A DNA stretch of 35,345 bases from assembly GCA_019745275.1 (NCBI GenBank), contig JAIETJ010000059.1:1-35345 (forward strand), written 5' to 3'. This stretch comes from Pseudomonadaceae bacterium. Its GTDB lineage: Bacteria > Pseudomonadota > Gammaproteobacteria > Pseudomonadales > Pseudomonadaceae. The position numbers were made by a program, and so were the translations under genes. Positions 2,158 through 19,708 of this stretch are shown piece by piece. The notes beneath the pieces are model-generated. The model saw nothing but the letters and a program-made list of their open reading frames with translations, made no database searches and was not told the DNA's origin. The first letter of the stretch is position 1; the number at the start of each line of letters is the position of its first letter.

Positions 2158-3027
2158 TCAGTGCCCCCTCACTACCGGGCGATAAACCGTGCGCTCAAGT
2201 AACTTCACAATGTGCGAGGCATGGACAAAGCTCTCTGAATGCCCAGCGAAAAACAAACCATCCGGACGTAGCAGCTTAATCATTCGCTCGAGAATTTTGC
2301 TCTGGGTTGGCTTGTCGAAATAGATCATCACATTGCGGCAGAAAATCACATCTAATCCCGCAGCAACTCCCCAATCAGTGTCCAGCAGATTAATTTGCCG
2401 GAATTCAATCAGCGCCTGCAATTCAGGACGGACGCGCACCTTACCCACTTGAGCACCCTTGCCACGCAAAAAGAATTGCTTCTTGCGTGGCAAGGCAAGT
2501 TGCTCCACACGCTCTTCCGGGTAAACCCCAGCACGCGCCGTAACAAGAACTCCAGTATCGATATCTGAAGCGATGATTTCGACATCAGGCGTCAATGTCC
2601 CCAAGGCCTCAATCATAGTCATGGCCAGTGAATATGGCTCCTCTCCAGTGCTGGAAGCCGAGCACCAGATGCGCAGCGGGCGACGCGCATGGGCGCTCTT
2701 GCGCACATGCGCTGCAAGCATCTCAAAGTGATGATTCTCGCGAAAAAACGAAGTGAGATTAGTGGTCAGCGCATTAATGAATTGCTGCCACTCCTCGTCA
2801 TGCTGCTCTAAATAGCTGAAGTACTCCGTAAAGCTGCGCAAATTTAGGCTACGCAGCCGCCGCGCCAGACGGCTGTACACCATTTGGTCCTTGGTCGACG
2901 ACAGATTAATGCCGGCCCTTTTATATAGCAGGTTGCGGACCAGCTCGAAGTCTTGCGCGGTGTAGTGGAACTCGCGCAAATCCTGCCGGTCCGGGGCCTG
3001 CGGTGACCGACTCAAAACTCCGCCCAC
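2158..3027 (-). CDS. cheR: CheR chemoreceptor methyltransferase
   Basis: Methylates receptor glutamates using S-adenosylmethionine. The protein is about 289 residues, with an N-terminal helical domain (about 20-105, containing [12 protein letters not shown]) and a Rossmann-type domain with SAM motif I at 119-133 ([16 protein letters not shown]), acidic D155-D157, and the CRNVMIYF segment at 230-237. The frame begins with GTG at 3027, overlapping the last 16 bases of the upstream MCP gene. A TTG at 3015 is an alternative start, and neither has a strong ribosome site, so the N-terminus is uncertain by four residues. The two MCPs of this operon end in WxxF-type tails, the kind of peptide that tethers CheR to receptors, so CheR is probably recruited to them. 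Confidence 0.94.
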
Positions 3028-5774
3028 TCATCATCTTTGGCTTTGCTGGGCCGCGGAAGATTTTTGGTAGGTGCTTTGGCGCGTGCGGCGCTTGGTGCTG
3101 GAGCGCGCGAAGCAGTTACTCTTGGCTGGTTCAGCCGTAGCGACTTGCCACCCGTAACACCTGCATTATCGAACTTAAACACCGCTACTGCTTGCGACAA
3201 AACCGAGGCTTGATCTTGCAGCGACTCGGCAGCGGCTGCTGCCTGTTCGACCAGGGCAGCGTTTTGCTGTGTCATCTCGTCCATTTGTGATACAGCTCCG
3301 TTAACCTCTTCAATGCCGGTACTTTGCTCAGATGACGCTGCGGCAATTTCCGACATGATGTCGGTCACCCGCTTGATCGCCACCACGATTTCACCCATGG
3401 TCACGCCAGCTTTGGCTACCAACGCATTACCGGTATCCACTTTATCCACTGAATCGGATATCAGGGTTTTGATCTCTTTGGCAGCTGCAGCAGAACGCTG
3501 TGCCAGCGTGCGAACTTCAGCGGCAACCACGGCAAAACCACGGCCTTGATCACCGGCACGAGCCGCTTCCACCGCGGCGTTCAGTGCCAGAATATTGGTC
3601 TGGAAGGCGATGCCATCGATTACGCTGATGATGTCAGAGATTTTGCGCGACGACTCATTGATCGACGACATGGTCTGCACCACTTGCTGCACCACGGCGC
3701 CACCAGTAGTCGCCACTTCCGAGGCATTGGCCGCGAGCGAGTTGGCCTGACGGGCATTGTCGGCATTGAGTTTAACGGTGGAGGTCAACTCTTCCATGCT
3801 TGAAGCGGTTTCTTCAAGGCTGGACGCTTGCTGCTCGGTACGCGCCGACAAGTCGGCGTTACCGGAGGCAATTTCGCTGGCAGCGGTATAGATGGTGTCC
3901 GCCGACTCGCGAATTTGCCCAAGCATGTTCGACAGGCTTTGCGAGGTTTCGTTGGAGAAGTCCTTCAACTGACCAAAGGTGCCTTGATAATCAGCGTCAA
4001 TACGTTGAGTCAAATTGCCTTCAGCCAGCGCTCCGAGTACCCGCACCACATCTTGCAAGCCCTTATCGGAAGTCGCCATCAACTCATTCAAGCCAGTGGC
4101 CAGATTGAGGAAGAAGCCATCTTTGTTGCTGGTCTCAATGCGTTGGCTGAAATCGCCTGCGCCTGCAGCGGTCACCAAGCTGGCGACTTCGCGTTCCACT
4201 GCCACCTCGATGGTGCGATCAGCCCACTCCACTACCGAACCCAGTCGTTCGCCGGCACTACTCATTACCGGGTTAGCCACCAAGGCAAAGGTGCGCGGCC
4301 CCACTACGATTTGTGCACGATAGGTACTGGAGAAGGTCGCCAGCAGGCGCTTTTGATGCTCTGGGTTTTTATGGAATTGGTCGATCGAACCACCGAGCAA
4401 CTTACTAGTATCAAAGCTTGGCAGTGCTTTACGCAGGTCGGCTTCGGCGTTTTGCAGCATCGCCAAGACCGTTTTATTCATGTAAATAATGTTGCGATCA
4501 TTGTCGGCAATCATCACATTACTGCTGACATTATCCAGGGCAATTTTGACCCGTGCGTTTTCTGCAGCAATGCACTGTGCCTTCTCCTCATCCGCCAATT
4601 GAACGGTGATGTCTTGCCACTCGACCACTGCGCCGAGTCGTTCGCCAGCGGCACTCATTACAGGGTTGGCAACCACGGTGAGCACGCGACCACCGAGCTT
4701 GATTTTTGCCTTATAAGTGCTACTGATCCGCGCCAGCATGCCGCGCTGATGATCCGGATTCTTATGGAAACGATCGATACTGCCACCGAGAATCTCACTG
4801 GCCTTGAACTGCGGTAATTCCGTGCGAATATCGCTTTCGGCAACCTGGAACATGTCCAGCACCGCCTTGTTGGCGTAGATAATATTGAAGTCTGCGTCGG
4901 CGATCATCACGTTGGCGGTGACGTTATCCAGTGCACTTTTGATCCGTGCGTTGTCACCGGCCGCTGCGGCGGATTGTTGCAGCGAAGCAAGCATGGCCTT
5001 AACCGACGCCATCACGCTGTTGAGTGGCGCTGGCGGTAGAGTAAGCGCGAAATTGCCCGCCGCAATACTATTGGTAGCGCTGGCCAACTCCAATGGATCA
5101 GCTCCAATTTGCTGGCGTATCGAACGCAGCACCAGCAGAAACATGGCGAGAAAAACCAAAGCACTGAGGCCGATAATCCACATAGTGTTACGGATGCTAC
5201 TACTGACTATTTGTTCCGCTTCTGCGCGAGAAGCCTCGCTGACCTTATTGACCATACTCACCAAACTCAACACAGCTTGATGTTGCACGCTAGCGTCTTG
5301 GTACAGCGCGTTAAACTCAGCGGTCATCGCCACTGCGTCGCCACTGCGTATAGCGGCCATATAACTACCCAGCGCCCGTTTGAAAAAGGCTTCGCCGCGC
5401 TGACTAATGTCGCCATTGATCAGCGCCATCTGCTCAGGCTCATGCGGATTTTTATTCCAGTACTGCACGCGATCACGCAATCCGCTTTGTAGCGCCTGCA
5501 ACTGGCTAGCTGCAACTTCGAGGCTCGCGCTGTCGTGCTGTAGAGCCATCCTAGCGGCGAGCTCACTGGCTTCGATAATAAACAGCGGTGGCGGCAGAAT
5601 GTCCGCCAACAGCACAGTGTCAGCCTCTATTGCCAGTTGTGTTTGTCCGCCAATGCGCACTGTTTGTATGGTGCTGAACGAACTGTAAGCGATGGCAACA
5701 ACACCCAGTAAAAAGGTCACCAGCAACAACAGTAGTTTCTGTAACAGAGTGAAGCGGCCAAGAATCATGCTCAT
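3012..5774 (-). CDS. Methyl-accepting chemotaxis protein, TM-sensor-PAS-PAS-HAMP-signalling (copy 2)
   Basis: Transmembrane chemoreceptor of 920 residues. TM1 spans about 11-31, a mostly helical periplasmic sensor 32-196 carries a conspicuous PPP-x4-EA motif at 61-69, and TM2 is about 199-218. Then come PAS1 (about 280-395), PAS2 (about 408-525; both contain GGSID-FHKNP), a HAMP-like segment (about 526-607) and the MA signalling hairpin with its tip near 723-753 ([20 protein letters not shown]). The hairpin resembles the 36-heptad Tsr/Tar class. The C-terminus DDEWAEF fits the WxxF receptor tail that binds CheR or CheB. ATG at 5774 follows a GGAG site at good spacing. The cytoplasmic half is nearly identical to the upstream MCP (6077-8836), while the periplasmic sensors differ clearly. 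The sensed signal is unknown. Confidence 0.93.
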
Positions 5775-6076: not shown

Positions 6077-8836
6077 TCAGAACTCCTCCCACTCATCATC
6101 TTTTGGCTTACTTGGCCGCGGCAAGCTTTTGGTCGGCGGCTTGGCGCGTGCTGCACTCGGTGCTGGAGCGCGTGATGCACCAGATGCACTGGCGTGCGAC
6201 TGACTTAGGCGAGGCGCATGGGAATTTGAGGCACCCGCATTGTCAAATTTGAATACCGCCACTGCTTGCGACAAGACCGACGCTTGTTCTTGCATCGACT
6301 CCGCTGCCGCAGCCGCTTGCTCAACCAACGCCGCGTTTTGCTGGGTCATTTCGTCCATTTGCGAAACGGCACCGTTAACCTCTTCGATGCCGGTACTTTG
6401 CTCGGATGACGCTGCGGCGATCTCCGACATGATGTCGGTCACCCGCTTAATCGCCACCACTATTTCGCCCATGGTCACGCCGGCTTTAGCCACCAGTGCA
6501 TTACCAGTATCGACCTTATCAACCGAGTCGGAGATCAGCGTTTTGATTTCTTTGGCGGCCGCTGCAGAACGCTGCGCCAGGGTCCGCACTTCGGCGGCGA
6601 CCACCGCAAAACCGCGGCCTTGATCGCCCGCACGGGCGGCCTCTACGGCGGCGTTGAGGGCGAGAATGTTGGTTTGGAAGGCAATACCGTCGATCACCCC
6701 AATGATGTCGGAGATTTTCCGGGCCGAGTCATTGATTGCCGTCATGGTATGCACCACTTGCTGCACCACGGCGCCGCCGGTGATAGCCACTTCAGAGGCA
6801 TTCGCGGCCAGCGAGTTGGCCTGACGGGCATTGTCGGCGTTGAGTTTCACGGTAGAGGTCAGCTCCTCCATGCTTGAAGCGGTTTCTTCCAGACTGGATG
6901 CTTGCTGTTCGGTGCGCGCCGAGAGGTCGGCGTTGCCGGTAGCAATTTCGCTGGCGGCGGTATAAATGGTGTCCGCCGACTCGCGAATCTGTCCGAGCAT
7001 ATTCGACAGGCTTTGCGAAGTCTCGTTGGAGAAATCCTTCAACTGGCCAAAGGTACCTTGATATTCAGCATCAATACGCTGGGTCAAATTACCCTCAGCC
7101 AGCGCACCCAATACCCGCACTACATCTTGTAAGCCCTTGTCGGAAGTTGCCATCAGCTGGTTAAGGCCGGTGGCAAGATTAAGGAAGAAACCTTCCTTAT
7201 TGTCAGTATCGATGCGCTGAGTAAAATCACCGGCACCCGCAGCATTTACCAAGCCAGCAACCTCTTGCTCCACTCCAACTTCAATGGTGCGATCGGCCCA
7301 CTCCACCACTGAGCCAAGCCGTTCGCCAGCTTCGGTCAATACTGGGTTTGCAACCAGGGCAAAGGTGCGCGGCCCCACCATAATTTGGGCTTTGTAAGTG
7401 CTGGTAAATGTCGCCAGCAAACGCTTTTGATGCTCTGGGTTCTTATGGAACTGATCGATACTGCCACCCAATAGCTTGTTGCTATCGAAGCTCGGTAGCA
7501 CCTTGCGCAAATCGCTCTCGGCGTTTTGCAGCATGGTAAGCACGGTCTTGTTCATGTAGATAATGTTGCGGTCGTTGTCAGCAATCATTACGTTACTGCT
7601 GACGTTATCCAGAGCAATTTTGACCCGGGCGTTTTCAGCGGCAATCCGCTGGGCTTTCTCTTCGATGGCCAATTGCGCCGTGATGTCTTGCCACTCAACA
7701 ACAGCACCTAAGCGTTCGCCTGAAGCACTCATAACCGGGTTCGCCACCACGGTTAGGACTCGGCCACCGAGCTTAATCTGGGCTTTATAGGTGCTGGTTA
7801 GGCGCTCAAGCATACCGCGCTGATGGGCCGGGTTTTTATGGAAGCGATCAATGCTGCCGCCGAGAATTTCACTAGCCCGAAAGCCTGTCAATTCGGTGCG
7901 AATATCGGTTTCGGCGGATTGGAACATCGTCATCACAGCCGCGTTGGCATAGATGATGTCGAAGTTTTTATCGGCAATCATCACGTTGGCCGTGACGTTG
8001 TCCAGCGCGCTTTTGATCCGTGCATTAGCGCCTGCGGCTGCGGCGGATTGCTGCAGCGCGACAAGCATGCTCTTGACTGCCGCCAGCACGCTACTTTCTG
8101 GCGCAGCCGGTAGACTGAGGTCGAAATTACCGGCAGCAATACTATTAGTAATGTCTGCCAGTTCCAGCGGATCAGCACCTAGCTGGCGTTTGACGCTGCG
8201 GATCAGCAGGTAAGCCAGCACACAGGCCAGCATCACAGCGAGCCCACCGATGATCAGTAGTAGACGGATGGTGTCGCTGGCATTCACTTCAGCCTGCACA
8301 CCTTGCTTTTCAACCAGTGTGCTCTGGAAGTTGACCAACGCTTCGATATTTTTTAAGTTGACGCCCTGCGCTGCGCGTAGATCAGCAAGCAAAAACACTT
8401 TTGCTTGCTCAAACTGACCAGAATCGAAGAGCCTCAGATACTCGCCCACTGCTGCGTCAAACAACTTATCACTCGAAACGAGCGTCTGCAGAAGTTGGCG
8501 ACCTTCGGCCGAAGTGATGGCCTTACTGAGCTTGTCCAGACGGTCTTGCGAGACTTTTTCGGCTTCTTCCAGTTGCGCTCGCTGCTGACCCACGAGTGCC
8601 GAGTCATCCTTGGCGAGCAACATGGTGCGCACGGCACGGGCGATGGAGTTGTTACTGTCAACAAAATCATTGGCCCAAACGGTCTTGGGAAAGCTGTTAC
8701 GGGTCAACTCATGAACACCGCCACGCAGATCGCCGATCTGCTGCAGAGCAATCCCCAGTAGCAGCGCCAATAAAACCACCAACACGGCAAAGCTGAGCGA
8801 CAGACGCTGAACCAGCTTCAATTTACTCAAGTTCAT
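6077..8836 (-). CDS. Methyl-accepting chemotaxis protein, 4HB-PAS-PAS-HAMP-signalling (copy 1)
   Basis: Transmembrane chemoreceptor of 919 residues. I take ATG 8836 (MNLSKLKLV) as the start because AAGGAG stands six bases before it; an upstream ATG at 8869 would add 11 residues and lacks such a site. TM1 lies at about 13-33, followed by a periplasmic helical domain of the four-helix-bundle MCP kind (with [12 protein letters not shown]) and TM2 ([20 protein letters not shown]). Two PAS domains, a HAMP-like region and a signalling hairpin are almost residue-for-residue those of the downstream copy. It ends in DDEWEEF, a WxxF tail like the CheR/CheB-tethering pentapeptide of Tsr/Tar (NWETF). The PAS domains show no obvious cofactor residues that I can assign, so the cytoplasmic stimulus is unknown. 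Confidence 0.93.
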
Positions 8837-8889
8837 GTGTATCTCCTTAGAATTTTCTGACAAGCACACGCAGTTACGTTGGTATTCGG

Positions 8890-9378
8890 CTAGTCGACCG
8901 TTTCATTGAGCAGGGCCATTTCGCCACTGCTCATGAGTTTTTCAATGTCGACCAAGATCAACATGCGCTCTTCAACCGTGGCCAATCCCTTGAGGTATTC
9001 GGTGTTAAAGGTGCTACCAAACTCCGGCGGTGGCCGGATGGCTTCGTCAGCCAGAGCGATCACGTCGGAAACCGAGTCGACCACTACACCGATAATGCGT
9101 TTAAGCACATTAAGAATGATCACCACGGTGAACTGGTCGTAGGTGACGCTGGACAGGTTGAACTTAATGCGCAGATCGACAATCGGCACAATGGCGCCGC
9201 GCAGGTTAATCACTCCTTTAATAAACGGCGGGCTGTTGGCGATGGCGGTGACTTGATCGTAGCCACGAATTTCCTGCACGCGCAGGATGTCGATGGCGTA
9301 TTCCTCAAGGCCGAGGGTGAAGGTTAGAAACTCCTGTGTCGGCTCGCTGACACGCTTATTCTCACGTTGGTCATGCAT
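8890..9378 (-). CDS. cheW: CheW coupling protein
   Basis: Scaffold protein that links receptor tips to the P5 domain of CheA in the membrane-associated array. The 162-residue product is a single CheW/SH3-like domain: [20 protein letters not shown] near the N-terminus, then [15 protein letters not shown] and the [11 protein letters not shown] segment. Its ATG at 9378 overlaps the end of cheA by 8 bases, with a GGAG ribosome site inside cheA, so the two are coupled. A second copy of its 3' end survives as a pseudogene at 5828-5959. Confidence 0.95.
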
Positions 9379-11281
9379 GGTTTAGCGCTCCTTGTCCGGC
9401 CAGTCTGGGTAGTGCATCGACGTCGAGAATCAATGCCACGCTGCCATCACCCATGATGGTGGCTCCGGTAACACCGTCGACACGGCGAAAGTTTTGTTCG
9501 AGGCTTTTGATCACCACTTGCTGCTGACCGACCAAGTCATCGACCTGCAAGGCAAAGGAGTTGCCCTCCGCCTCAAGGATCAACACCAAGCCACCAGCCT
9601 CAGCGACGGGGGCAACCGTTTGATTGAGCAAGCTGTTCAATGAAAGCAGCGGCAAGTATTCGTCGCGCACGCGAATCACCGCGCTGCTGCTGCCACTCAT
9701 GCTGAAAATATGTTCTTCAGTGAGTTGCAGCGACTCGACGATGTAGGTCAGCGGTACCACGTAATGCACCTTGTCGACCTCAACGACCATGCCGTCGAGA
9801 ATCGCTAGGGTTAGCGGCAAGCGGATAACGATATGCGTGCCTTGGCCGGCGACCGATTTGATTTCAATGCGGCCGCCAATCGAGGTGATATTGCGGCGTA
9901 CCACATCCATACCAACGCCACGCCCAGAGAGATCGGTAACCGCTTCGGCGGTGGAAAAACCAGGCATGAAGATCAGCAACCAGACCTCGCTGTCCGGCAT
10001 GTCATCAGTGACCGCCATACCCTGCTCTTTTGCTTTAGCAAGGATGCGCTCGCGCGACAGGCCTTTGCCGTCGTCGCTAATTTCCACCACGATGCGCCCA
10101 CCTTGATGGGCCGCCGACATGCGCACAGTGCCCTGCGCCGGTTTGCCGGCGGCAATGCGCTCGGCGGGCAACTCAATACCGTGATCGATGCTGTTACGGA
10201 TAATGTGGGTGAGCGGGTCGGTGAGTTTTTCGATCACACCTTTGTCCAGCTCAGTGTTTTCTCCGCGCAGTACCAGCTCAACTTGCTTGCCAAGCTTGCC
10301 GCAGGTATCGCGCACCAAGCGTGGAAAGCGGTTAAACACAAAGCTGATCGGCAGCATACGGATCGACATCACCGCCTCTTGCAGCTCGCGGCTATTGTGC
10401 TCGAGCTGACTTAAGGCTTGGAAGATGCGCTCGTGCTCGCTGGGGTCGAGCACCAAGCTCAATTGCGCAAGCATTGCCTGAGTAATGACCAGCTCGCCAA
10501 CTTGGTTGATTAGACTGTCGATACGGTCAACGCTAACTCGAATAGAGCTCGATTCACTCTCGGCCTGACTCGGGCTGGCTGGCGCGCCGCGTCGATCGGT
10601 GCTGCGGCGATCTTGCGTGGGTGTGGACAGTTCAGCGGCTGGCGCTACAAGCGGCTCAGCGGCTGGCAAAGCGGCACTCGAAGACTGAGTTACTGGCGCG
10701 CCGGGCGCATCATCAAAAAAACCGTAGGCGCTATCGGCGGTAGCGTTAACCACCGGCGGCTCGTCGGCAAACAGACCATAGGCTTGCTCCCCCACTGCAA
10801 CTACAGCTGCCGTTGCTGGTGCACCAGGAGCATCAGCAAAGAAACCAAAACTGTCATCCTCAACCGTTACTGGCGCGCTAGCAGCGCCGCTTTGTTGATC
10901 GATTAGTGCCTGCAGGCGCAGCCGTGTGGCTTCGACCGGAATACTCGGATCGGGGCTTTCGTGCTTGTGCGCCGCGACTAACTGCAGCAGCACATCACGC
11001 GATTCAAGCAGCACGTCGACCATCTCGGCCCGCAAGAGCATCTGCCCAGAGCGGACTTTATCCAGCAGAGTTTCCAGCACATGGGTGACGGAAGTAATGT
11101 CATCAAAGCCGAACATGCCGCTGGAGCCTTTGATTGAATGCGCCGCACGGAAAATACCGTTCAGCGCCTCGGGATCGGGCTGGGCAATGTCTAACGTCAG
11201 CAACAAGTGCTCAAGCGCTGCCAAGTGCTCTTCTGCTTCCTCGAAGAACACCCCGAGGAACTGACTCATGCCAAATGTCAT
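9371..11281 (-). CDS. cheA: CheA sensor histidine kinase
   Basis: Kinase of the array; it autophosphorylates and passes phosphate to CheY and CheB. The protein is 636 residues. P1 is an Hpt domain with H48 ([10 protein letters not shown]). There is no recognisable P2; instead about 125-245 is a low-complexity linker with three short repeats ([31 protein letters not shown]). P3 is at about 248-310. P4 has an N-box (RNSIDHGIE), G1 (DDGKGL) and G2 (GRGVGMDVV). P5 is the CheW-like C-terminal domain ([15 protein letters not shown]). Start ATG 11281 has AGGT upstream; the ATG at 11269 has no ribosome site. It lies 22 bp after cheY and overlaps cheW. Confidence 0.95.
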
Positions 11282-11303: not shown

Positions 11304-11669
11304 TCAGTTCAGGACTTTCTTGGTCACTTCCAGCAGCTTGGGCGGGTCGAACGGTTTTACCAGCCAACCGCTGGCACCTGCTTCGCGTCCCTGCAATTTC
11401 ATACTGTCGGCAGCCTCGGTGGTGAGCATTAAAATTGGCACCGCGCGGTAGTTAGGCAGCCCGCGCAGGCTTCTGATCAGGGTTAAACCGTCCATGTTCG
11501 GCATGTTTTGATCGGTAAATACCAGGTTATAGGTTTTGCGTTGCGCCTTGCCTAAACCATCGCGGCCATCCACCGCCTCGTCCACCTCGTATCCGGCAGA
11601 GCGCAGGGTAAAGCCGAGCATTTGGCGAATCGAAGCTGAGTCGTCAACGATCAGAATGGATTTGCTCAT
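11304..11669 (-). CDS. cheY: CheY-type single-domain response regulator
   Basis: A 121-residue receiver domain with no output domain. Visible residues are the acidic pair D9-D10, phosphoacceptor D53 (FTDQNMPNMDG), T83 (MLTTEA) and K105 (VKPFD). It sits directly before cheA, as in Che2-type loci, and is the expected phosphoacceptor of this CheA. Whether it acts on the flagellar motor or on another target cannot be read from the sequence. No cheZ or cheC/cheX gene is recognisable in the operon, which makes the CheZ-like motif of the small MCP relevant to its dephosphorylation. Confidence 0.93.
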   Translation of the reverse strand: MSKSILIVDDSASIRQMLGFTLRSAGYEVDEAVDGRDGLGKAQRKTYNLVFTDQNMPNMDGLTLIRSLRGLPNYRAVPILMLTTEAADSMKLQGREAGASGWLVKPFDPPKLLEVTKKVLN

Positions 11670-11691: not shown

Positions 11692-13428
11692 TCATATAGT
11701 TTTCGCTGTTGCATGAGTTGTTATAGGTATGTGGTCCCAGCACAACAGGGCGCTAACCTGATTGCCACGACCGTGAATTTCGACGCTGGTGCTCAAACGG
11801 CGCACCAACTGCAGGCCGCGCCCATGGTAGAGGCTAGGCTCCACGTCGCCGTTTTGCCGACTCGCCCAATCAAAACCGGGGCCGCTGTCGGTTACCTCGA
11901 TGCTTAATTGGTTGCCCTGCAACGAACCGATCTGGCAAATATCCAAACGAATCTGGCCACTGTTAAGTGCCTCTAAGCGTTCAATACGCGCGAGCAGATA
12001 ACGCTCAAAACCTTCCGGGCCATCTTTCAACTCTGAACCTAAGCCTAGTAGCCCGTGATCCAAAGCGTTAGTAATAAGCTCGCGTAAAATCAAACTAAAA
12101 GGCCCTTGGCGCTGTTGATCGAGCCCTAAGGTATTACAGAAATCGGTGAGTAGTGGCTCTAAATCGAGACGCCGGAGCTGCTCGGCCTGTAAGCACAGAT
12201 TGAACTCCCAGCTCTGGACTAAGCCACTGCTGGCCGGCGTAGGCGGTGCATCCAACTGCTGCGCAGGGGATGAGGCCGGCGCTCGGCAATCGAGTAGCAG
12301 ACAGGAAAGATCATCATGCGGGGTAGCCCCCTGTAAGTGTTCAAGCACCGCCGCCTGCACGCGTTCAAGGCATTGCTCAACCGCGCCAGCCGCCACACAC
12401 TGCTGCAATAGCTGCATGCCAAACTGCTCGAATGCGGCGTTCTCGGCCTCAACCAAACCATCGGAAAACAGCAACAGATGACTGGCGTGCGGTACCTGAA
12501 TCGTCTCGGTTTCGCACAGAAACTCACTGCTAGATAAGATTCCCAGCGGCAAGTTGTGCGAGCGAAAACTGCGCAGCACTTGTCCTTGCGGGCCAATCAA
12601 CAAGGCCGGCGGCAAGCCGCCATTCCACACTTCGATGCTACAGTCGCGCGGGTTGTACATGGCCATGGTGGCCGCAACAAAGCGATCGGAGGGGCTGTAA
12701 CTGCGGTGCTGGTGATTCAATTCGCGGGCAATGGTGTCGAGCTGATAGCCTTTAGCGGCCATGGCATAAAACGCTTGCGAGAGCGGAATTAGGGTCAAGG
12801 CGGCCGGCAAACCATGGCCGGTAGCGTCGGCTAACATCACATACACATCGCCATTGCGCGAGGTACAGGCTAGCAGTAGGTCGCCAGACACTTCGGCGGC
12901 CGGTTGCAACACATACTTAATCAGCGGGCTGTCGAGCATCTCGCGGCGCACCAAACGCTCCATCAAGAAACTGCAGATGCGCCGCTCTTCCGCCTCGAGG
13001 CTGGCATAGTGCTGCAACTGCTGGTGCTGGCCGGCAATCTGCTGCTGCATGCGCGCAATGCGCCAGAACGAGTTGATTTTCGCTTCGAGAATTTGAAAGT
13101 TAATTGGCTTGGCGATGAAATCATCGCAGCCGGCATTCAGCGCCAACACCTGCTCATCGATGGCCGCACCACCGGACAGCATAATGATCGGCAGCCAGCC
13201 ACTGGTTTGCTGCATATCACGCAACGCCCGAGTGGTATCCAAGCCATCCAAACCGGGCATTTGCCGATCGACCAAGACGAGGTCAAAGGCTTGCTCGGCA
13301 TAACTGATTAACGCCTGATCACCGCTAAGCACATGCACCACCGTATGCCCAAGACGCTGAACAAAGGCGGCGATGACCATACCAATCAGTGGGTCGTCAT
13401 CAATAGCGAGAATCTTCAGTGGCCGCAT
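11692..13428 (-). CDS. Response regulator with PP2C (SpoIIE-type) phosphatase and RsbW-like ATPase domain
   Basis: Three-domain regulator of 578 residues. The N-terminal receiver (1-120) has phosphoacceptor D54 (LVDRQMPGLDG). The PP2C/SpoIIE phosphatase (about 165-380) has candidate metal ligands D183, D201 (DATGHG), D323 (FSDGL) and D372-D373. The C-terminal HATPase_c/RsbW-like domain (about 410-565) has an N-box (ELITNALDHG), G1 (DSGPGF) and GRGLQLV. This is the architecture of HsbR of Pseudomonas and CrsR of Shewanella, which dephosphorylate or phosphorylate a STAS anti-sigma-factor antagonist according to their own phosphorylation. The STAS partner is encoded immediately upstream, two bases away. 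Phosphorylation by the neighbouring CheA is a reasonable inference, not shown by sequence. Confidence 0.9.
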   Translation of the reverse strand: MRPLKILAIDDDPLIGMVIAAFVQRLGHTVVHVLSGDQALISYAEQAFDLVLVDRQMPGLDGLDTTRALRDMQQTSGWLPIIMLSGGAAIDEQVLALNAGCDDFIAKPINFQILEAKINSFWRIARMQQQIAGQHQQLQHYASLEAEERRICSFLMERLVRREMLDSPLIKYVLQPAAEVSGDLLLACTSRNGDVYVMLADATGHGLPAALTLIPLSQAFYAMAAKGYQLDTIARELNHQHRSYSPSDRFVAATMAMYNPRDCSIEVWNGGLPPALLIGPQGQVLRSFRSHNLPLGILSSSEFLCETETIQVPHASHLLLFSDGLVEAENAAFEQFGMQLLQQCVAAGAVEQCLERVQAAVLEHLQGATPHDDLSCLLLDCRAPASSPAQQLDAPPTPASSGLVQSWEFNLCLQAEQLRRLDLEPLLTDFCNTLGLDQQRQGPFSLILRELITNALDHGLLGLGSELKDGPEGFERYLLARIERLEALNSGQIRLDICQIGSLQGNQLSIEVTDSGPGFDWASRQNGDVEPSLYHGRGLQLVRRLSTSVEIHGRGNQVSALLCWDHIPITTHATAKTI

Positions 13429-13732: not shown

Positions 13733-14911
13733 TTAGAAAAGATCTATACCGCCGGCATTCATACTGGTCTGCGACACAGGCCCGGACGGCAACTGCTTTA
13801 ACTCTAGTCGCTCTTCAAGCAATCGCTGCCCTTGTTCACCCGGTGACAACCGAACATGACCCTGTAGACGCTGCGAAAAAGCCTCTAGCGCTTGGCAATT
13901 AATCTGTACCTGGCCAAGTAGCTGACTGCTCAGGTCTTGAAACTGCAAGGCAGTAACAGCGCGATTTATCCCATCGCCAATGCTGCTGGAAATGCCATCT
14001 AACTGACTAATCACCTGCAGGGTGCGCGCACTCATGCGCTGTAAGTCATCGAGCATGTCGTTCACTTGCTTGCGTGAGCCGAGCGCGAAGGACATGTCTT
14101 TAGCGGCCAGCAAACTCACCGCAGCATCCGCCGCTTTAAGTTCGTTATGCACCGCATCAACGTGCTGGCGAATTTGCGCGGAAAACTCGGTTGAGCGGCT
14201 CGATAGCGCCCGCACCTCATCGGCCACCACGGCAAATCCACGGCCTGACTCACCGGCCCGGGCGGCTTCAATAGCGGCGTTAAGGGCAAGTAAATTGGTT
14301 TGTTTGGCGATCGAGTCCATGTCGCTGGTGGATTTAAGGATGTCGCCAATTTTGGCGCTGATGCAGTCCATGCGCTCAACCAAGTGCATCGAGGTATGGC
14401 TGGTTTCGATGGTTGAGTCGACGAACAAACCAAGCGTGGTTTGCGTGGTGCTGACAAACTCTTGCAAGCCACCACCACCGCTGCCGCCACGATGGTTTTC
14501 GATCAGTTCGTGGGCCAGATCGTGCTGCTCGTTAACGCTGCGCGCTAACTGAGTGAAGCTGGAACTCAAATCGACGATAGCCGAACTTAGCAACGTATTT
14601 ACTTGTTTAACTTGGCCCTGCAGCAAGCCGCTCTGATGCTGGATAGCATGCCGGTTTAGCAGGCACAGCTCATCGGCTTGCGCGCGACTTAAGCCCTCCG
14701 GCGGTAGCTCAACTAGCCCCGCCGGCGTTTGCCCATTCAGCAGCAGCATCAACATGGCCGCGCTGGCCAGCAAGCCAGCCAACAAACTCAGCCACGGCGA
14801 CTGCAGCAGCGCCCACAAGCCAAGGCTCAACAACCATGGCAACGCTTGCGCCAACAAGAGCCGCGACCACGACAACGGCAACACCAAGGCGGACTGCGCA
14901 GAATCATTCAT
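13733..14911 (-). CDS. Small membrane MCP-like protein with CheZ-like motif
   Basis: First gene of the che operon, 392 residues. Two adjacent hydrophobic helices (about 14-36 and 40-59) form a membrane hairpin with essentially no periplasmic domain. A helical region with a glycine-rich break (GGSGGGG, 142-148) follows. The MCP hairpin core is at about 195-235 ([31 protein letters not shown]). There is no HAMP, PAS or sensor domain. The C-terminal helix contains [10 protein letters not shown], with D326 and Q330 spaced as the catalytic Asp143 and Gln147 of CheZ (QDFQDLTGQV). The protein ends in GGIDLF, like CheD. It could be a signal-less scaffold or receptor that also acts as a CheY phosphatase; that role is inference. 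Confidence 0.8.
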
Positions 14912-15040: not shown

Positions 15041-15150
15041 GCCGCCAGCGCCCGCTTAAATCCCACTTAAGCACTTGCATTTTCAGCATTTAACACCTTT
15101 GCTTTAGACTGCCGATCCGGTGTTTATTGCCGCACAACCAAGAGCTTGCC

Positions 15151-15558
15151 ATGACCCAACTTCGTCGTATTTTGCATGTAGAAGATGACCGTTCGATTCA
15201 AGCTGTGGCCAAGGTAGCCCTTGAGGCAGTGGGCGGATTTCAGGTGCTCAGTTGCTCCAGTGGCGCCGATGCTGTGGCGCAAGTACTGGCTTTTGACCCG
15301 CAGTTTATTTTGCTCGACGTGATGATGCCCGGCATGGATGGCCCGCAAACCTTGCTGCAACTGCGCGAATTGGTGGATATTCGCCGGGTGCCGGTAGCCT
15401 TTATGACCGCCAAAGTGCAACCGGCCGAGATCGAGCATTACCTAAGTTTAGGCGCGCTGGATGTCATCACTAAACCCTTTGACCCAATGCAGCTAGCCCA
15501 ACAGGTACGCGACATCTGGGCGCGCAACCAAACTACCAACCCAGTAGACCCTGCATGA
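15151..15558 (+). CDS. Single-domain response regulator
   Basis: A 135-residue receiver domain without output domain. It shows E11-D12-D13, phosphoacceptor D56 (FILLDVMMPGMDG), T in FMTAK, and the conserved Lys in ITKPFD. I chose ATG 15151; the frame could open at TTG 15127, but ATG gives the normal N-terminus (TQLRRILHVEDD). Its stop overlaps the start of the next gene in an ATGA, so it is translationally coupled to the histidine kinase. It probably either receives phosphate from that kinase or passes it to the Hpt domain of the diguanylate cyclase. It is transcribed divergently from the che operon. Confidence 0.9.
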   Translation: MTQLRRILHVEDDRSIQAVAKVALEAVGGFQVLSCSSGADAVAQVLAFDPQFILLDVMMPGMDGPQTLLQLRELVDIRRVPVAFMTAKVQPAEIEHYLSLGALDVITKPFDPMQLAQQVRDIWARNQTTNPVDPA

Positions 15559-17927
15559 GCAAAGGAGCGCCCTTGCCCGCCAATGAAACCGCGCGTTTGG
15601 CAGCGCTGGCGAGCTACAACATTCTGGACACTCCCGCCGAGGAGGAGTTTGACGATTTCACTCAGTTGGCCGCACAAATTTGTGCAACTCCGATTGCGCT
15701 GGTGTCGCTGCTCGACGCTCAGCGTCAGTGGTTTAAAAGCCGGGTGGGGCTGGATGCAGCAGAAACAGACCGGGAAATCGCCTTCTGCGGCCATGCGATT
15801 CTCGGCAATGAATTGCTCGAAGTACGCAACGCCCTCGAAGACCCGCGCTTTTCCAATAACCCCTTAGTCACAGGCGCACCAGATATTCGTTTTTATGCGG
15901 GTACCCCGCTAACCACAGCCGACGGCTTCAATCTGGGGACCCTGTGCGTAATTGATCGCACGCCACGCCAGCTTAACCCGCAACAACGTAGTGCCTTAGC
16001 GCGTCTGGGCCGACAAGTTGTGCGCCAGCTGGAACTACGTAAGAGTGCGGAGCAACACGCACATCAGCTAGCGTTACAGCGCGCAATGATCAGTAGCGCC
16101 GGTATTGCCATGCTAACCACCGACCCTGAGGGGCGCATCAACAGCGTTAATCAAGCCGCCGCGCAACTGCTTGAATACTCCAGCACAGCGCTGCTCGGAC
16201 AATCTATTTGCGCGCTGCATAACCCACTGCAACTGCGTGCTCGCGCCCGACTGGCCAGCATCGACGATCCTTTTACCCTGCTGGTAAATAAGGCGCAGAG
16301 CGGTGAACGCGAAAGCCTTGAATGGATTTACCTGCGCAGTGACGGCCGCCCCCTGCCAGTTCAGCTGAGCGTATCGGCCATTCGCAGTGACACCCAGACC
16401 CTGCAAGGGTATTTATTTATTGCTCGCGATTTATTGCAACGCGAACAACTGCAACAGCGCTTGCAACACTTGTCGGCACAGCTACCGGGCGTGGTTTATC
16501 AATTTCTCCTGCGCGCCGATGGCACGAGCTGTTTTCCGTATGCCAGCGCCGGCATTAAGGAAGTTTACGGCTGCACTCCGGAGCAAGTACTCAACAGCGC
16601 CGAGGCGGCATTTGCCGTTTTGCATCCTGCCGACGTAGCAGCTGTCGGCGCTTCCATCGAACAGTCGGCGCTGCAACTAAGTCGATGGCAGGCCGAGTAC
16701 CGAGTCAATCATCCAACGAAAGGGCTTATCTGGCTGGAAGGCCGCGCGAGCCCTGAGCGCCGCGATGATGGCTCGACCCTCTGGCACGGCTTTATTACCG
16801 AAATTAGTGCGCGCAAAGCTGAACACGCCGAACTAGACCGCCAACAAGAAATCAACCGTCGCTTACTGGCAACCTTCTCCGACGCCATTGTCGCCTGCGA
16901 CACTCAAGGCCAATTAACCCTCTTTAACGACAGCGCCGGCAGCTGGTATGGCGTTGCGCCAGGTGACGCGCCCATCACCCCAATCGCCAGCGACTGGGCG
17001 CAACGTTACGGCTTATTTACCCTTGACGGGCAAACACCGCTGCACCTTGAAGATATGCCGCTGTTGCGCGCCCTGGCCGGCGAGCGTGTGCGCAACAGCG
17101 AACACTGCATCGTGCGGCACGGCTTTAACACTCGCTATGTGTCGGTTAATGCTGACCCGCTATTTGCCGCCAACGGGCAACAAACTGGCGCCGTCGCGGT
17201 GCTGCACGACATCACCGAACGCCGGCATATCGAGCAATTGCAGCGTGACTTTGTCTCCACCGTCAGCCATGAACTGCGCACCCCTCTTACCTCAATTAAC
17301 GGCTCGCTGGGTTTAATCATTGGCGGCGCGCTTGGCCCCGTGCCTGCCAGCATGGCAGCCATGCTCAGCATTGCTCAGCAAAATAGCCAACGCCTAAGCC
17401 TGCTGATTAATGACCTGCTGGACATGGACAAATTGCTCGCCGGAAAAATGGATTTCAACCTCTGCGAGCAACCCTTATTGGCCTTATTAAACGATGCGCT
17501 GCGCAGCAATCAAGGTTATGCCGAGCAATATCAGGTGAGCTATCAATTGCAGCCATTTAGCGATGTCAAGGTCACGGTTGACGGCCTACGACTGCAACAG
17601 GTGCTGGCGAATTTCTTGTCTAACGCCTGTAAGTTTTCCCCTGCGGGCAGTCAGATTAACCTGCGCGTAGACAATAGTGAGGGCCACGTCAGAGTGAATG
17701 TGTGCGATCAAGGCAGTGGCGTGCCGCCGGAGTTTCAGGCGCGGATTTTTCAAAAGTTTTCCCAAGCCGACGCTTCCAGCACCCGCCAACAAGGTGGTAC
17801 GGGCCTCGGCTTGGCCATTAGCAAAGAACTGATTGAACGCATGGGTGGCAGCATTGGCTTTGACTCAAGCGCTAAGGGGGCAATTTTTTGGTTTGAACTG
17901 CCGGTGCAAAGCAACCACGCTGAGTGA
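15555..17927 (+). CDS. Soluble sensor histidine kinase, GAF-PAS-PAS-PAS-HisKA-HATPase
   Basis: A 790-residue kinase without membrane segments, so it senses a cytoplasmic signal. It has an N-terminal GAF (about 5-165, with the family's CVIDR end) and three PAS domains (about 175-290, 300-420 with YGCTPEQVL, and 430-555 ending in DITERR). HisKA follows with phosphorylatable H572 (VSHELRTPLTSING). The ATPase domain has its N-box Asn near 690 (LSNACKFSP), FQKFSQAD and GGTGLGLAISKELIERMGG. There is no receiver domain at the C-terminus. Its ATG overlaps the stop of the upstream response regulator. The third gene of the run, 131 bp downstream, supplies Hpt and receiver domains, so the three likely form a phosphorelay ending in c-di-GMP synthesis. 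Confidence 0.92.
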   Translation: MSKGAPLPANETARLAALASYNILDTPAEEEFDDFTQLAAQICATPIALVSLLDAQRQWFKSRVGLDAAETDREIAFCGHAILGNELLEVRNALEDPRFSNNPLVTGAPDIRFYAGTPLTTADGFNLGTLCVIDRTPRQLNPQQRSALARLGRQVVRQLELRKSAEQHAHQLALQRAMISSAGIAMLTTDPEGRINSVNQAAAQLLEYSSTALLGQSICALHNPLQLRARARLASIDDPFTLLVNKAQSGERESLEWIYLRSDGRPLPVQLSVSAIRSDTQTLQGYLFIARDLLQREQLQQRLQHLSAQLPGVVYQFLLRADGTSCFPYASAGIKEVYGCTPEQVLNSAEAAFAVLHPADVAAVGASIEQSALQLSRWQAEYRVNHPTKGLIWLEGRASPERRDDGSTLWHGFITEISARKAEHAELDRQQEINRRLLATFSDAIVACDTQGQLTLFNDSAGSWYGVAPGDAPITPIASDWAQRYGLFTLDGQTPLHLEDMPLLRALAGERVRNSEHCIVRHGFNTRYVSVNADPLFAANGQQTGAVAVLHDITERRHIEQLQRDFVSTVSHELRTPLTSINGSLGLIIGGALGPVPASMAAMLSIAQQNSQRLSLLINDLLDMDKLLAGKMDFNLCEQPLLALLNDALRSNQGYAEQYQVSYQLQPFSDVKVTVDGLRLQQVLANFLSNACKFSPAGSQINLRVDNSEGHVRVNVCDQGSGVPPEFQARIFQKFSQADASSTRQQGGTGLGLAISKELIERMGGSIGFDSSAKGAIFWFELPVQSNHAE

Positions 17928-18058
17928 CGCAGCGCAGGCTTTCTCCGCGCTGTTGCTGCCAAATTTGCCAAGCTGGGCTAACCTAACTTAACGGTTACGC
18001 CGCTACTTGGCGCAAACATTACGACCACCGATTGATCGCGCACCTTAGAGCACTGCCC

Positions 18059-19708
18059 ATGGCCACCAGCGATGACGAACTACAACAGCTTTTGCTCAGC
18101 CTCGGCGCACAGTTTCGTCTGCGCTTAGAACAAGAGCTCCCAGAGTTGCGCGCACTGGCCGAACAACTCTTGATCGCTCACACGGTGGCGCCAAGACAGA
18201 TCATCCTACAAGGCATGCGCGAGCAACTGCACAAGCTAGCCGGCTCCGCTGGCACCTTTGGTTATGCCAGCCTAGGTGCTCAAGCGCGCACGCTCGAACT
18301 CAGCAGCGTGGCGCTACTCAGCACCAGCAATACCGAACAACTATGCGAACACGCCCACGCCATCATCGCCTTCAGCCAACAAGACTGCGCCTTAAGCGCA
18401 ACACCCGACAGCACCGAAAAAGCCACACAGCCAAGCAACACCAACACCGAGCTAAGTCGACGCATTTACATTTTAGCGCCCGACCAGCAACTGGGTGAAA
18501 ACCTACAAACCACCTTGCTCAGCTTTGGTTATGCCGTCGAACACCTGCGCAGCAGTGCCGCCATGCTGGAGGCAGTCAACCGTCAGCTACCCGATGTGCT
18601 AATCATCGATAGTCAGCTAGAAGACGATAATCCTGATGGCTTGGCCTTTGCCCGCGAGTTGCTCACGCAACTACCACTGCCCCTGCCCCTGCTAATCATC
18701 TCTGAGCAACATGACTTCGACATCCGACTGCGCGCGGTGCGGATTGGGGTGGCCGGTTTCTTCAATAAGCCGGTGAATTTCAGCGCACTGGAAAGCCGTC
18801 TCGACAGCATATTTGCGCAACAGCGCGGCGAGCCATTTCGAGTGTTAATCATTGACGACGACCTCGAACTTTCCAAGCGCTATCGTCTTGTACTGGACAA
18901 CGCGGGCATGCAGGTTGAAACCCTAAGCCAACCGGAACAGATAGATCGGGTCATGCACAGCTTCAACCCCGAAGTGGTGTTATTGGATGTGCATATGCCG
19001 CTCTGCTCAGGGCCAGAATTGGCGCAGATAATTCGCTTTAACGATGCGTGGCTGCGCGTACCGATTATTTATCTCTCGGCCGAAACCGACATCAGCAAAC
19101 AGATTAAGGCGCTCCTGAAAGCCGGCGACGACTTTGTAACTAAGCCCATCTCGGATAATTCACTGGTGGCCAGCGTATTAGCTCGCGCCCAACGCGCGCG
19201 CTTACTCAGCAATGCGCTATCACGAGACAGCCTGACCGGCTTACTCAAGCACGCCGACATCAAAGAGCAGGTAGCCGTTGAGGTTGAGCGAGCGGCACGT
19301 CGCGGCACCTCGACCTGCGTGGTGATGCTCGATCTGGATAATTTTAAACAGGTTAACGACCGCTACGGTCACGCCGTTGGCGACAACGTTATTCGCGCGC
19401 TGTCCAATTTGCTCCGCCAGCGCCTCAGACGGGTCGATAGCCTCGGGCGTTACGGCGGCGAGGAGTTCACCGCCGTATTACCCGAATGCAGCCTTGAGCA
19501 AGCCAAACGGATCATTGACGAGATTCGTTTACGCTTCGCCGAATTGCCCTTTATCGCCAACGAAACCAGTTTCAACGTGACCTTTAGTGCCGGCATCGCC
19601 CAGAACAGCAGTCAAACTACCGCTAGCCAATTAATCGAGCTAGCCGATCAAGCCCTGTATGCAGCCAAGGCCGCGGGGCGTAACCAAGTGCATTGCAGCC
19701 AACCCTGA
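18059..19708 (+). CDS. Diguanylate cyclase, Hpt-REC-REC-GGDEF
   Basis: Makes c-di-GMP from two GTP. From ATG 18059 the protein is 549 residues; a TTG at 18032 would add nine. An Hpt domain with H58 (LHKLAGSAGTFGY) comes first. REC1 (about 134-255) keeps an Asp at the acceptor position (D184, IIDSQLED) but has lost the usual acidic pair, so it may be degenerate. REC2 (about 260-380) is complete (D266-D268, acceptor D310, K362). The GGDEF domain (about 388-549) has intact active-site GGEEF (466-470) and an RxxD product-inhibition site (R457 to D460) at the usual distance. Hpt ahead of two receivers is unusual for a cyclase. Confidence 0.92.
   Translation: MATSDDELQQLLLSLGAQFRLRLEQELPELRALAEQLLIAHTVAPRQIILQGMREQLHKLAGSAGTFGYASLGAQARTLELSSVALLSTSNTEQLCEHAHAIIAFSQQDCALSATPDSTEKATQPSNTNTELSRRIYILAPDQQLGENLQTTLLSFGYAVEHLRSSAAMLEAVNRQLPDVLIIDSQLEDDNPDGLAFARELLTQLPLPLPLLIISEQHDFDIRLRAVRIGVAGFFNKPVNFSALESRLDSIFAQQRGEPFRVLIIDDDLELSKRYRLVLDNAGMQVETLSQPEQIDRVMHSFNPEVVLLDVHMPLCSGPELAQIIRFNDAWLRVPIIYLSAETDISKQIKALLKAGDDFVTKPISDNSLVASVLARAQRARLLSNALSRDSLTGLLKHADIKEQVAVEVERAARRGTSTCVVMLDLDNFKQVNDRYGHAVGDNVIRALSNLLRQRLRRVDSLGRYGGEEFTAVLPECSLEQAKRIIDEIRLRFAELPFIANETSFNVTFSAGIAQNSSQTTASQLIELADQALYAAKAAGRNQVHCSQP

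Follow-up and report, generated by a model that had tools for sequence, protein, structure and literature searches.

A McpA-like protein with a CheZ-type signature is a candidate membrane-anchored phosphatase of an F7-type chemosensory operon

CheZ inserts Asp143 and Gln147 beside the phospho-aspartate of CheY, and its C-terminal helix, like the N-terminus of FliM, binds CheY through an acidic-hydrophobic peptide, while CheC, CheX and FliY are CheY-P phosphatases with another fold and another motif. Across CheZ, an AXXFQ element is described as conserved beside DXXXQ (PMC7750401). CheT of Sinorhizobium, encoded in a che operon, is reported as a DXXXQ protein that accelerates the dephosphorylation of one CheY and has no significant homology to any chemotaxis protein already described (PMC12654446), and sets a precedent for DXXXQ proteins outside CheZ; it is likened to the protein described here by description only, and differs from it in being alphaproteobacterial and a reported CheR binder (PMC12654446).

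In F7 chemosensory systems of stages 1 and 2, cheY is present and cheZ absent, cheZ being found only in the F6 systems of stage 1/2 organisms (PMC7184735). The McpA-like receptors of F7 clusters are reported to fit no heptad class and to possess a highly conserved C-terminus without a CheR motif, and their role has been called unclear and puzzling (Ortega et al., PMC7184735). The tail of Pseudomonas aeruginosa McpA is stated to bind none of four CheRs (PMC7184735), and McpA localises with F6 arrays (PMC7184735, PMC7534058, PMC9855816). The P. aeruginosa protein (McpA/CttP) has been tied to trichloroethylene taxis and to F6 clustering (PMC7534058). Shewanella McpA clusters with the flagellar (F6) array, its loss leaves swimming unaffected, and its overproduction raises swimming, as does that of three ordinary MCPs (PMC9855816). 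The portions of the open-access literature consulted mention neither a CheZ-type motif in McpA nor a tail common to CheD and McpA. Comamonas FlmD was considered as a relative and rejected, as it is a response regulator.

The window, the whole stretch of 35,345 nucleotides analysed, carries on its minus strand a che operon headed by an MCP-like gene (13733–14911). It is followed by genes for a REC-SpoIIE(PP2C)-HATPase regulator (11692–13428), CheY with a single receiver domain (11304–11669), CheA with Hpt, dimerisation, HATPase and CheW-like domains (9371–11281), CheW (8890–9378), an MCP with PAS domains and HAMP that ends in the CheR-type pentapeptide-bearing sequence DEWEEF (6077–8869), a second such MCP ending in DEWAEF (3012–5774), CheR (2158–3027), CheD (1547–2155) and CheB (456–1541). 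The gap after the MCP-like gene is 304 bases and that between the two MCP genes 302, all others being at most 22. The two PAS-HAMP receptors are 76% identical and probably arose by tandem duplication. Divergent plus-strand genes beside the operon (15127–19708) encode a single receiver, a PAS histidine kinase and an Hpt-REC-REC-GGDEF protein. The gene order is that of F7 clusters minus the anti-sigma antagonist gene (PMC7184735), and the F7 type is judged from this order. No cheZ, CheC, CheX or FliY domain was reported among the 13 genes tested in the operon region. The statement of the initial annotation that the operon shows no cheZ, cheC or cheX thus stands, but the genome encodes a CheZ elsewhere (G000:C3, 255.8 bits). 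That annotation mentioned neither this CheZ nor the resemblance to McpA-like receptors of F7 clusters, the soluble relatives and the C-terminal tail in common with CheD described below.

The MCP-like gene encodes 392 residues with MCPsignal (PF00015, 102.1 bits, residues 176–311) as the sole domain above the Pfam cut-off; no sensor or ligand-binding domain was detected besides it at that cut-off. Two hydrophobic helices (residues 15–36 and 39–59; 14735–14869) with almost nothing between them were found both in a structure model and in a hydropathy scan (peaks at 18 and 38–43). The model, a single chain built with eight sequences and of modest quality (mean pLDDT 68.7, pTM 0.33), contains further helices at 76–141, 146–218, 224–352 and 357–372, with residues 373–392 unstructured. 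A fold search with this monomer model matched MCPs and long helices; CheZ was not among the matches listed, which was given no weight either way. The hairpin tip (residues 200–235; 14207–14314) lies in the MCPsignal match, is a largely invariant block in alignment A2, and corresponds to the region that contacts CheA and CheW in known MCPs. The methylation consensus has a single match, at the start of a helix (residues 146–155), which is not conserved in alignment A2; it is absent from the return helix, and the neighbouring MCP has five matches. The earlier description of an MCP core with bare membrane helices and no sensor, PAS or HAMP domain is therefore borne out by Pfam, model and hydropathy.

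By context and anatomy the protein is McpA-like: an F7-cluster gene encoding a membrane region and an MCP domain with a conserved non-CheR C-terminus. It resembles, by description only, CttP/PA0180 of P. aeruginosa, Mlp44/VCA1088 of Vibrio cholerae and SO_2117 of Shewanella oneidensis in operon position, in a membrane region lacking a periplasmic domain, in the MCP core and in a conserved C-terminus that is not a CheR pentapeptide (PMC7184735, PMC7534058, PMC9855816). A locus of Vibrio sp. THAF191d, which has the stage 1 F7 order as far as its genes are labelled, encodes a McpA-like protein with FTDIIVQ and the tail EGEVELF.

Long helix 224–352 carries the element that links the protein to CheZ. 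The ORF translation confirms the FQDLxxQ motif noted earlier, with Asp326 and Gln330 at CheZ spacing within residues 322–331. Both halves of the pair that defines CheZ are present and in register (13922–13951), AXXFQ as A321 to Q325 and DXXXQ as D326 to Q330. Since the CheZ of the same genome reads AQDFQDLTGQ (and ends VDDLLSSLGF), the match extends over A-x-x-F-Q-D-x-x-x-Q, and in its residues this is the same signature as that of CheZ. The A of AXXFQ is variable in the wider family, as judged from 24 C-terminal halves. F324 sits 116 residues beyond the L of the LALN tip motif, a spacing that is equal in relatives matched by regular expression, and the motif presumably occupies the position of methylation helix 2 of ordinary MCPs (generic consensus). 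Shuffling residues 224–352 gave FQD...Q in 820 of 200,000 shuffles, so its single occurrence is mild evidence, and it is conservation that gives the motif its weight.

Among the 24 C-terminal halves, which are 18–80% identical to the 392-residue protein, Q323, F324, D326, Q330 and the last F are the only invariant positions. These sequences, from which profile A1 was built, were picked as motif carriers, with nine MCP-core ORFs lacking the motif excluded (L041–L048 and L068) and L051, L052 and L062 also outside because the tip pattern missed them; profile searches are consequently biased towards motif carriers. A less biased sample was chosen by CheD, comprising 60 of 82 CheD matches from the 76 genomes with F7 CheD among 232 searched. 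It omits the window, the soluble-form loci of G258, G314, G319 and G359, and lower ranks; nine of the remaining matches were added as a separate set. All 19 ORFs in these 60 loci that have the 392-residue protein as best BLAST match keep Q-F-x-D-x-x-x-Q and an LF-type tail; one CheZ is also encoded in these loci, as are nine short soluble forms that carry the motif.

F.D...Q in the motif region was absent from all 109 ordinary MCPs (longer than 520 aa; complete ORFs from four of six ORF sets) and present in 67 of the 86 MCP-core ORFs that do not exceed 520 aa. The 19 short ORFs without it include L041–L048 and five receptor ORFs ending W..F. Of 68 MCP-form members counted across the loci, seven lack the strict motif, namely L041–L046 and L052 (QYEDIVSQ). 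L041–L048 are eight orphan Pseudomonas paralogs (match at about 9001–9600) with neither motif nor tail, in whose loci no cheY or cheA is labelled; the motif is also missing from L027, another ORF of orphan type. Other exceptions are L252, a weak match without motif or tail, and a tandem MCP-like pair in L246 (441–2464), in which the first copy reads RFEEPITQ and has no tail and the second reads QFEDMVTQ and ends DEGDIELF. The Asp/Gln pair is thus conserved in the che-linked orthologs examined, L252 and one L246 copy excepted. The caveat of the initial annotation that such a motif might be a common structural feature of MCPs does not hold, given its absence from the 109 ordinary MCPs and its retention in soluble relatives that have no MCP core. 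A second operon type (L053–L067 and L221–L231) has the order MCP-like, cheY, cheA, MCP, cheW, cheR, cheD, cheB, with variants, and carries an FQDR-type motif, mostly xxITFF-like tails and a mostly tailless CheD; it may be an F9-like system.

Burial of both residues in the coiled coil had been named as an observation that would speak against catalysis. Helix phasing, measured as the angle from the hydrophobic face with the motif itself excluded, places both on or near the exposed face, much as in CheZ. At 102.86 degrees per residue, D lies 85–106 and Q 136–158 degrees off the hydrophobic face in MCP forms, 80–91 and 131–143 degrees in soluble forms, and 123–125 and 175–177 degrees in CheZ; at 100 degrees per residue, D of the MCP forms comes closer to the boundary (68–99) and Q lies at 108–139. 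The invariant Q-3, D0 and Q+4 point outward or sideways and the buried positions -1, +2 and +3 vary, which argues against a packing motif.

Profile comparison gave a divided picture of the relationship with CheZ. In hhalign, the 24 MCP-form C-terminal halves matched 16 CheZ sequences at 72.9% (E 3e-5 for this one pair), gapless over 68 columns and motif on motif; with larger alignments the MCP-form set reached 82.4% with CheZ, again motif on motif. Split by subgroup, fourteen FQDR-type sequences gave 64.0%, ten window-type sequences 12.3% and the soluble forms 0.3%, and with the motif masked the 24-sequence set fell to 4.2% in an unchanged register. Controls against CheZ were low for reversed profiles (0.9–1.4%) and ordinary MCP C-terminal halves (0.2%), and at most 2.4% with enlarged alignments; controls were not low for ordinary MCP C-terminal halves against the enlarged MCP-form set (38.3% over 23 columns) or against the soluble forms (10.1–14.0%). 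The suggested HMM-HMM comparison therefore supports the alignment of the two motifs, but common descent is not proved, because of the window-type, soluble-form and motif-masked values; the case for descent from CheZ is no more than suggestive.

Searches with single models were similarly mixed. The CheZ Pfam model (PF04344, cut-off 30.7 bits) run against the genome of the window ranked the motif region of the 392-residue protein third, below cut-off and non-significant (9.9 bits, E 1.13), behind a 721-residue MCP ORF without the motif (16.4 bits, E 0.011, CheZ 4–105). It matched one family member at E 4.3e-4 (20.5 bits, below cut-off) and, in the same search, an ORF outside the family better (E 1.5e-4, CheZ 5–112). 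Profile A1 matched true CheZ in three genomes (E 1.9e-7 to 4.2e-7); among PDB sequences it found coiled coils, the best being designed ones (E 0.007), and no CheZ.

Profile A1 also matches ORFs of 158–308 codons that have no MCP core. In 17 aligned soluble forms the invariant columns are QF-x-D-x-x-x-Q and the final F only, and when 23 MCP and soluble forms, all motif carriers, are aligned together, Q, F, D, Q and the last F are invariant. The motif is present in 25 of 25 short proteins and the strict tail in 21, these proteins having been recruited by motif-containing profiles; among soluble forms the tail is missing in L186, extended in L180 (IDLF and 13 more residues) and variant in L129 and L205. 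The MCP-form C-terminal half and the short forms match at 98.8% in hhalign and at 97.1% with the motif columns masked, so the short forms are true relatives. None of the nine short forms tested has a Pfam or NCBIfam model above cut-off, and one reaches CheZ at 15.6 bits (<30.7). Forms of about 330–370 residues occur in other classes of the phylum, with no membrane helices in those inspected by eye; most of them have a motif resembling QFEDMVSQ and a tail resembling DEGDIELF.

Among the first 17 soluble forms, eight are encoded within or next to che genes (L123, L124, L126, L127, L132, L135, L138 and L141), L125 has only a CheW-like gene nearby, and eight with motif and tail (L128–L131, L133, L134, L136 and L137) have no che gene labelled within the locus DNA examined. 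The nine soluble forms of the CheD-chosen loci, partly the same genes, are placed between an MCP gene or cheW and cheR, or before cheY. A soluble form is encoded in some genomes, G257 and G202 for example, in addition to the MCP form of the operon and apart from it, so the soluble forms are not simply replacements; together with the eight that have no che gene nearby, this means that soluble forms need not act on the F7 CheY.

The motif is joined by a second conserved element at the C-terminus. After a disordered linker the 392-residue protein ends AGGIDLF (13736–13756), and the CheD of the operon ends SGDIDLF (1550–1570), so that GGIDLF is paired with GDIDLF; we propose this tail as a response-regulator tether. 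Its last residues are conserved in the 24 C-terminal halves, and GIDLF, with I at position 2, falls outside the CheR motif x-[HFYW]-x2-[HFYW]. CheD ends in [IV][DE][LF]F with at most four further residues in 53 of the 60 CheD-chosen loci and in a variant or extended form in five more; the tail is absent in L160, where a stop lies inside CheD, and in L201. Of 2486 unlabelled ORFs in these loci nine end in the tail pattern, seven of which are short forms. The CheD tail is missing in most operons of the FF-tail type, and the CheY columns by which the two tail types can be told apart showed no enrichment in alpha4-beta5-alpha5 (p 0.62). In L184 a GGDEF-type protein heading an F7 operon (906–1934) ends DDIELF, a tail as on CheD and the phosphatase candidates, and is perhaps another partner of the same target.

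Counting a member anywhere in the genome, 67 of the 76 F7-CheD genomes, the window's included, have one (61 by A1 and six of the other 15 by A3), and A3 matched none of 18 tested genomes without F7 CheD. The class co-occurrence table reads 61, 15, 5 and 151, assuming that the genomes searched with A1 and with CheD coincide. In the order of G647, an F7-like CheD was found in 34 of 60 genomes, and a family match in 29 of these 34 vs none of the 17 tested among the 26 without F7 CheD (Fisher p 1.8e-9). No member was detected in nine of the 76 (G172, G181, G196, G269, G295, G301, G308, G312 and G360) and in five of the 34 (G567, G674, G684, G703 and G707). The CheD match of G181 is a fragment; G172, G196, G301 and G312 have neither member nor CheZ, and G196 and G312 also lack the CheD tail.

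CheZ is present in 36 of the 42 F7-CheD genomes tested, and it could therefore serve the CheY of the operon, here as well, where the genome encodes CheZ elsewhere. It lies at most 2 kb past CheD in six of the 42. In two of these, G647 and G676, a family member is retained and the CheD alignment runs to the last residue; member and CheD tail are both missing from G295 and G360, and apparently from G684, whose lack of the tail is judged from where the alignment ends in a frame with a stop. G567 has CheZ beside CheD, CheD aligned to the last residue and no member, which counts against co-loss. The loci read in G360 and G295 show no cheY ahead of cheA. When further F7 clusters with cheZ were sought around G360, four genomes were covered and one match was obtained. 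In L201 and L213 the only labelled cheY precedes cheZ, with no family member and no CheD tail seen. L255 (9102–16840) has the order soluble form, cheY, cheA, cheW, cheR, cheD, cheB, cheY, cheZ, each cheY standing beside a putative or true phosphatase gene. This pattern is compatible with an old CheY-phosphatase set having given way to a CheY-CheZ pair, with small numbers and G567 as a counter-example.

We lean towards the view that the 392-residue protein is a CheZ-type phosphatase, anchored in the membrane on an MCP scaffold, for the response regulator of its own F7-type operon. It shares with CheZ (PF04344) the AXXFQ-DXXXQ pair on an exposed helix face, a linker and a hydrophobic-acidic tail ending in F, and differs from it in the MCP scaffold, hairpin tip and membrane helices and in its shorter tail. 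By the Pfam model it is not a CheZ family member, yet it probably works like one. The scaffold-phosphatase suggested in the initial annotation thus gains from the conservation and exposed-face phasing of D and Q and stands as a candidate activity; CheY is the most likely substrate and the REC-SpoIIE-HATPase regulator a second possible substrate or output. Confidence in this view, and in its extension to the family below, is slightly reduced because no more than half of the first soluble forms have che genes beside them and because the CheZ model makes stray matches. The 304-base gap between the gene and the rest of its operon, the reported behaviour of Shewanella McpA and the lack of a tail-type signal on the CheY surface also count against it. 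The protein would dimerise into a four-helix bundle and may join receptor arrays through its hairpin tip. Catalysis at the phospho-aspartate of CheY would fall to D326 and Q330, in the manner of D143 and Q147 in CheZ, at a site some 110 residues (about 16 nm of helix) above the tip towards the membrane. CheY would be held by the C-terminal tail, as it is by the C-terminal helix of CheZ, and CheD would find this partner too through its own copy of the tail. Elsewhere among F7 clusters the role would be filled in some by a soluble version of the C-terminal half and in a few by a CheY-CheZ pair. The localisation of McpA with F6 arrays could mean a link from these arrays to F7 signalling.

Other readings were weighed against the same data. 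The FxDxxxQ face might dock a receiver (CheY or REC-SpoIIE) at the array with no dephosphorylation, a reading served by the same exposure and conservation data, by the adjacency of cheY and by a common tail that hints at partner binding; mere docking would allow more change than is seen in D and Q, which never vary at i, i+4 across the aligned forms, MCP or soluble, and we regard it as unlikely. A structural role for the motif, serving packing or register in the coiled coil of this subfamily, is quite unlikely: the motif does sit in a long helix, F324 borders the hydrophobic face and D0 approaches that border when 100 degrees per residue are assumed, but the outward Q-3 and Q+4, the D on or near the exposed side and the variable buried positions do not suit packing, soluble proteins without an MCP core keep the motif, and the orphan paralogs lose it together with the tail.

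A true receptor, in which Q323 and Q330, at heptad spacing, would be sites of CheD deamidation or CheR methylation and the tail would recruit CheR, is very improbable. The position of the motif at that of methylation helix 2, the cheR, cheD and cheB genes of the operon and the consensus match at 146–155 are what such a receptor would have, and E-W/V-E-X-F has been proposed in a review as a CheR3 site in V. cholerae (PMC11940527). Against it, F and D are invariant too, the return helix lacks the methylation consensus of which the neighbouring MCP has five matches, the 146–155 match is not conserved, soluble forms lack the MCP core, and the P. aeruginosa tail is reported to bind none of the four CheRs (PMC7184735). 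An ordinary orphan chemoreceptor in the CttP/McpA role, whose CheZ likeness would be convergent noise, is a shade less probable still: the reported trichloroethylene taxis and F6 clustering of P. aeruginosa McpA/CttP (PMC7534058) fit it, but the protein has no sensor domain and its invariant residues are the signature residues of CheZ.

Extending the phosphatase reading to the family, we tentatively propose that every F7-type or related chemosensory system with no cheZ of its own is equipped with a dedicated CheY-P phosphatase from a family not recognised so far, which would have two bodies, the membrane-bound, MCP-scaffolded McpA and the soluble short form. Its QFxDxxxQ motif and the tail shared with CheD would steer signal termination and receptor deamidation to the same partner, probably the F7 CheY, and this set would have been replaced by the CheY-CheZ pair as F7 clusters came to control flagella.

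In model bacteria, McpA-like proteins are listed as chemoreceptors. If they are phosphatases, this would explain how the signal is ended in F7 systems that have CheY and no CheZ, why their C-terminus is conserved without CheR binding, and why the F7 array is intact after McpA deletion. It would also suggest a function for a soluble family whose nine tested members have no Pfam or NCBIfam match above cut-off, and it would make McpA an MCP scaffold turned enzyme, with signal termination placed in or near the array. The 392-residue protein probably supplies the off-switch that a widespread chemosensory system has seemed to lack.
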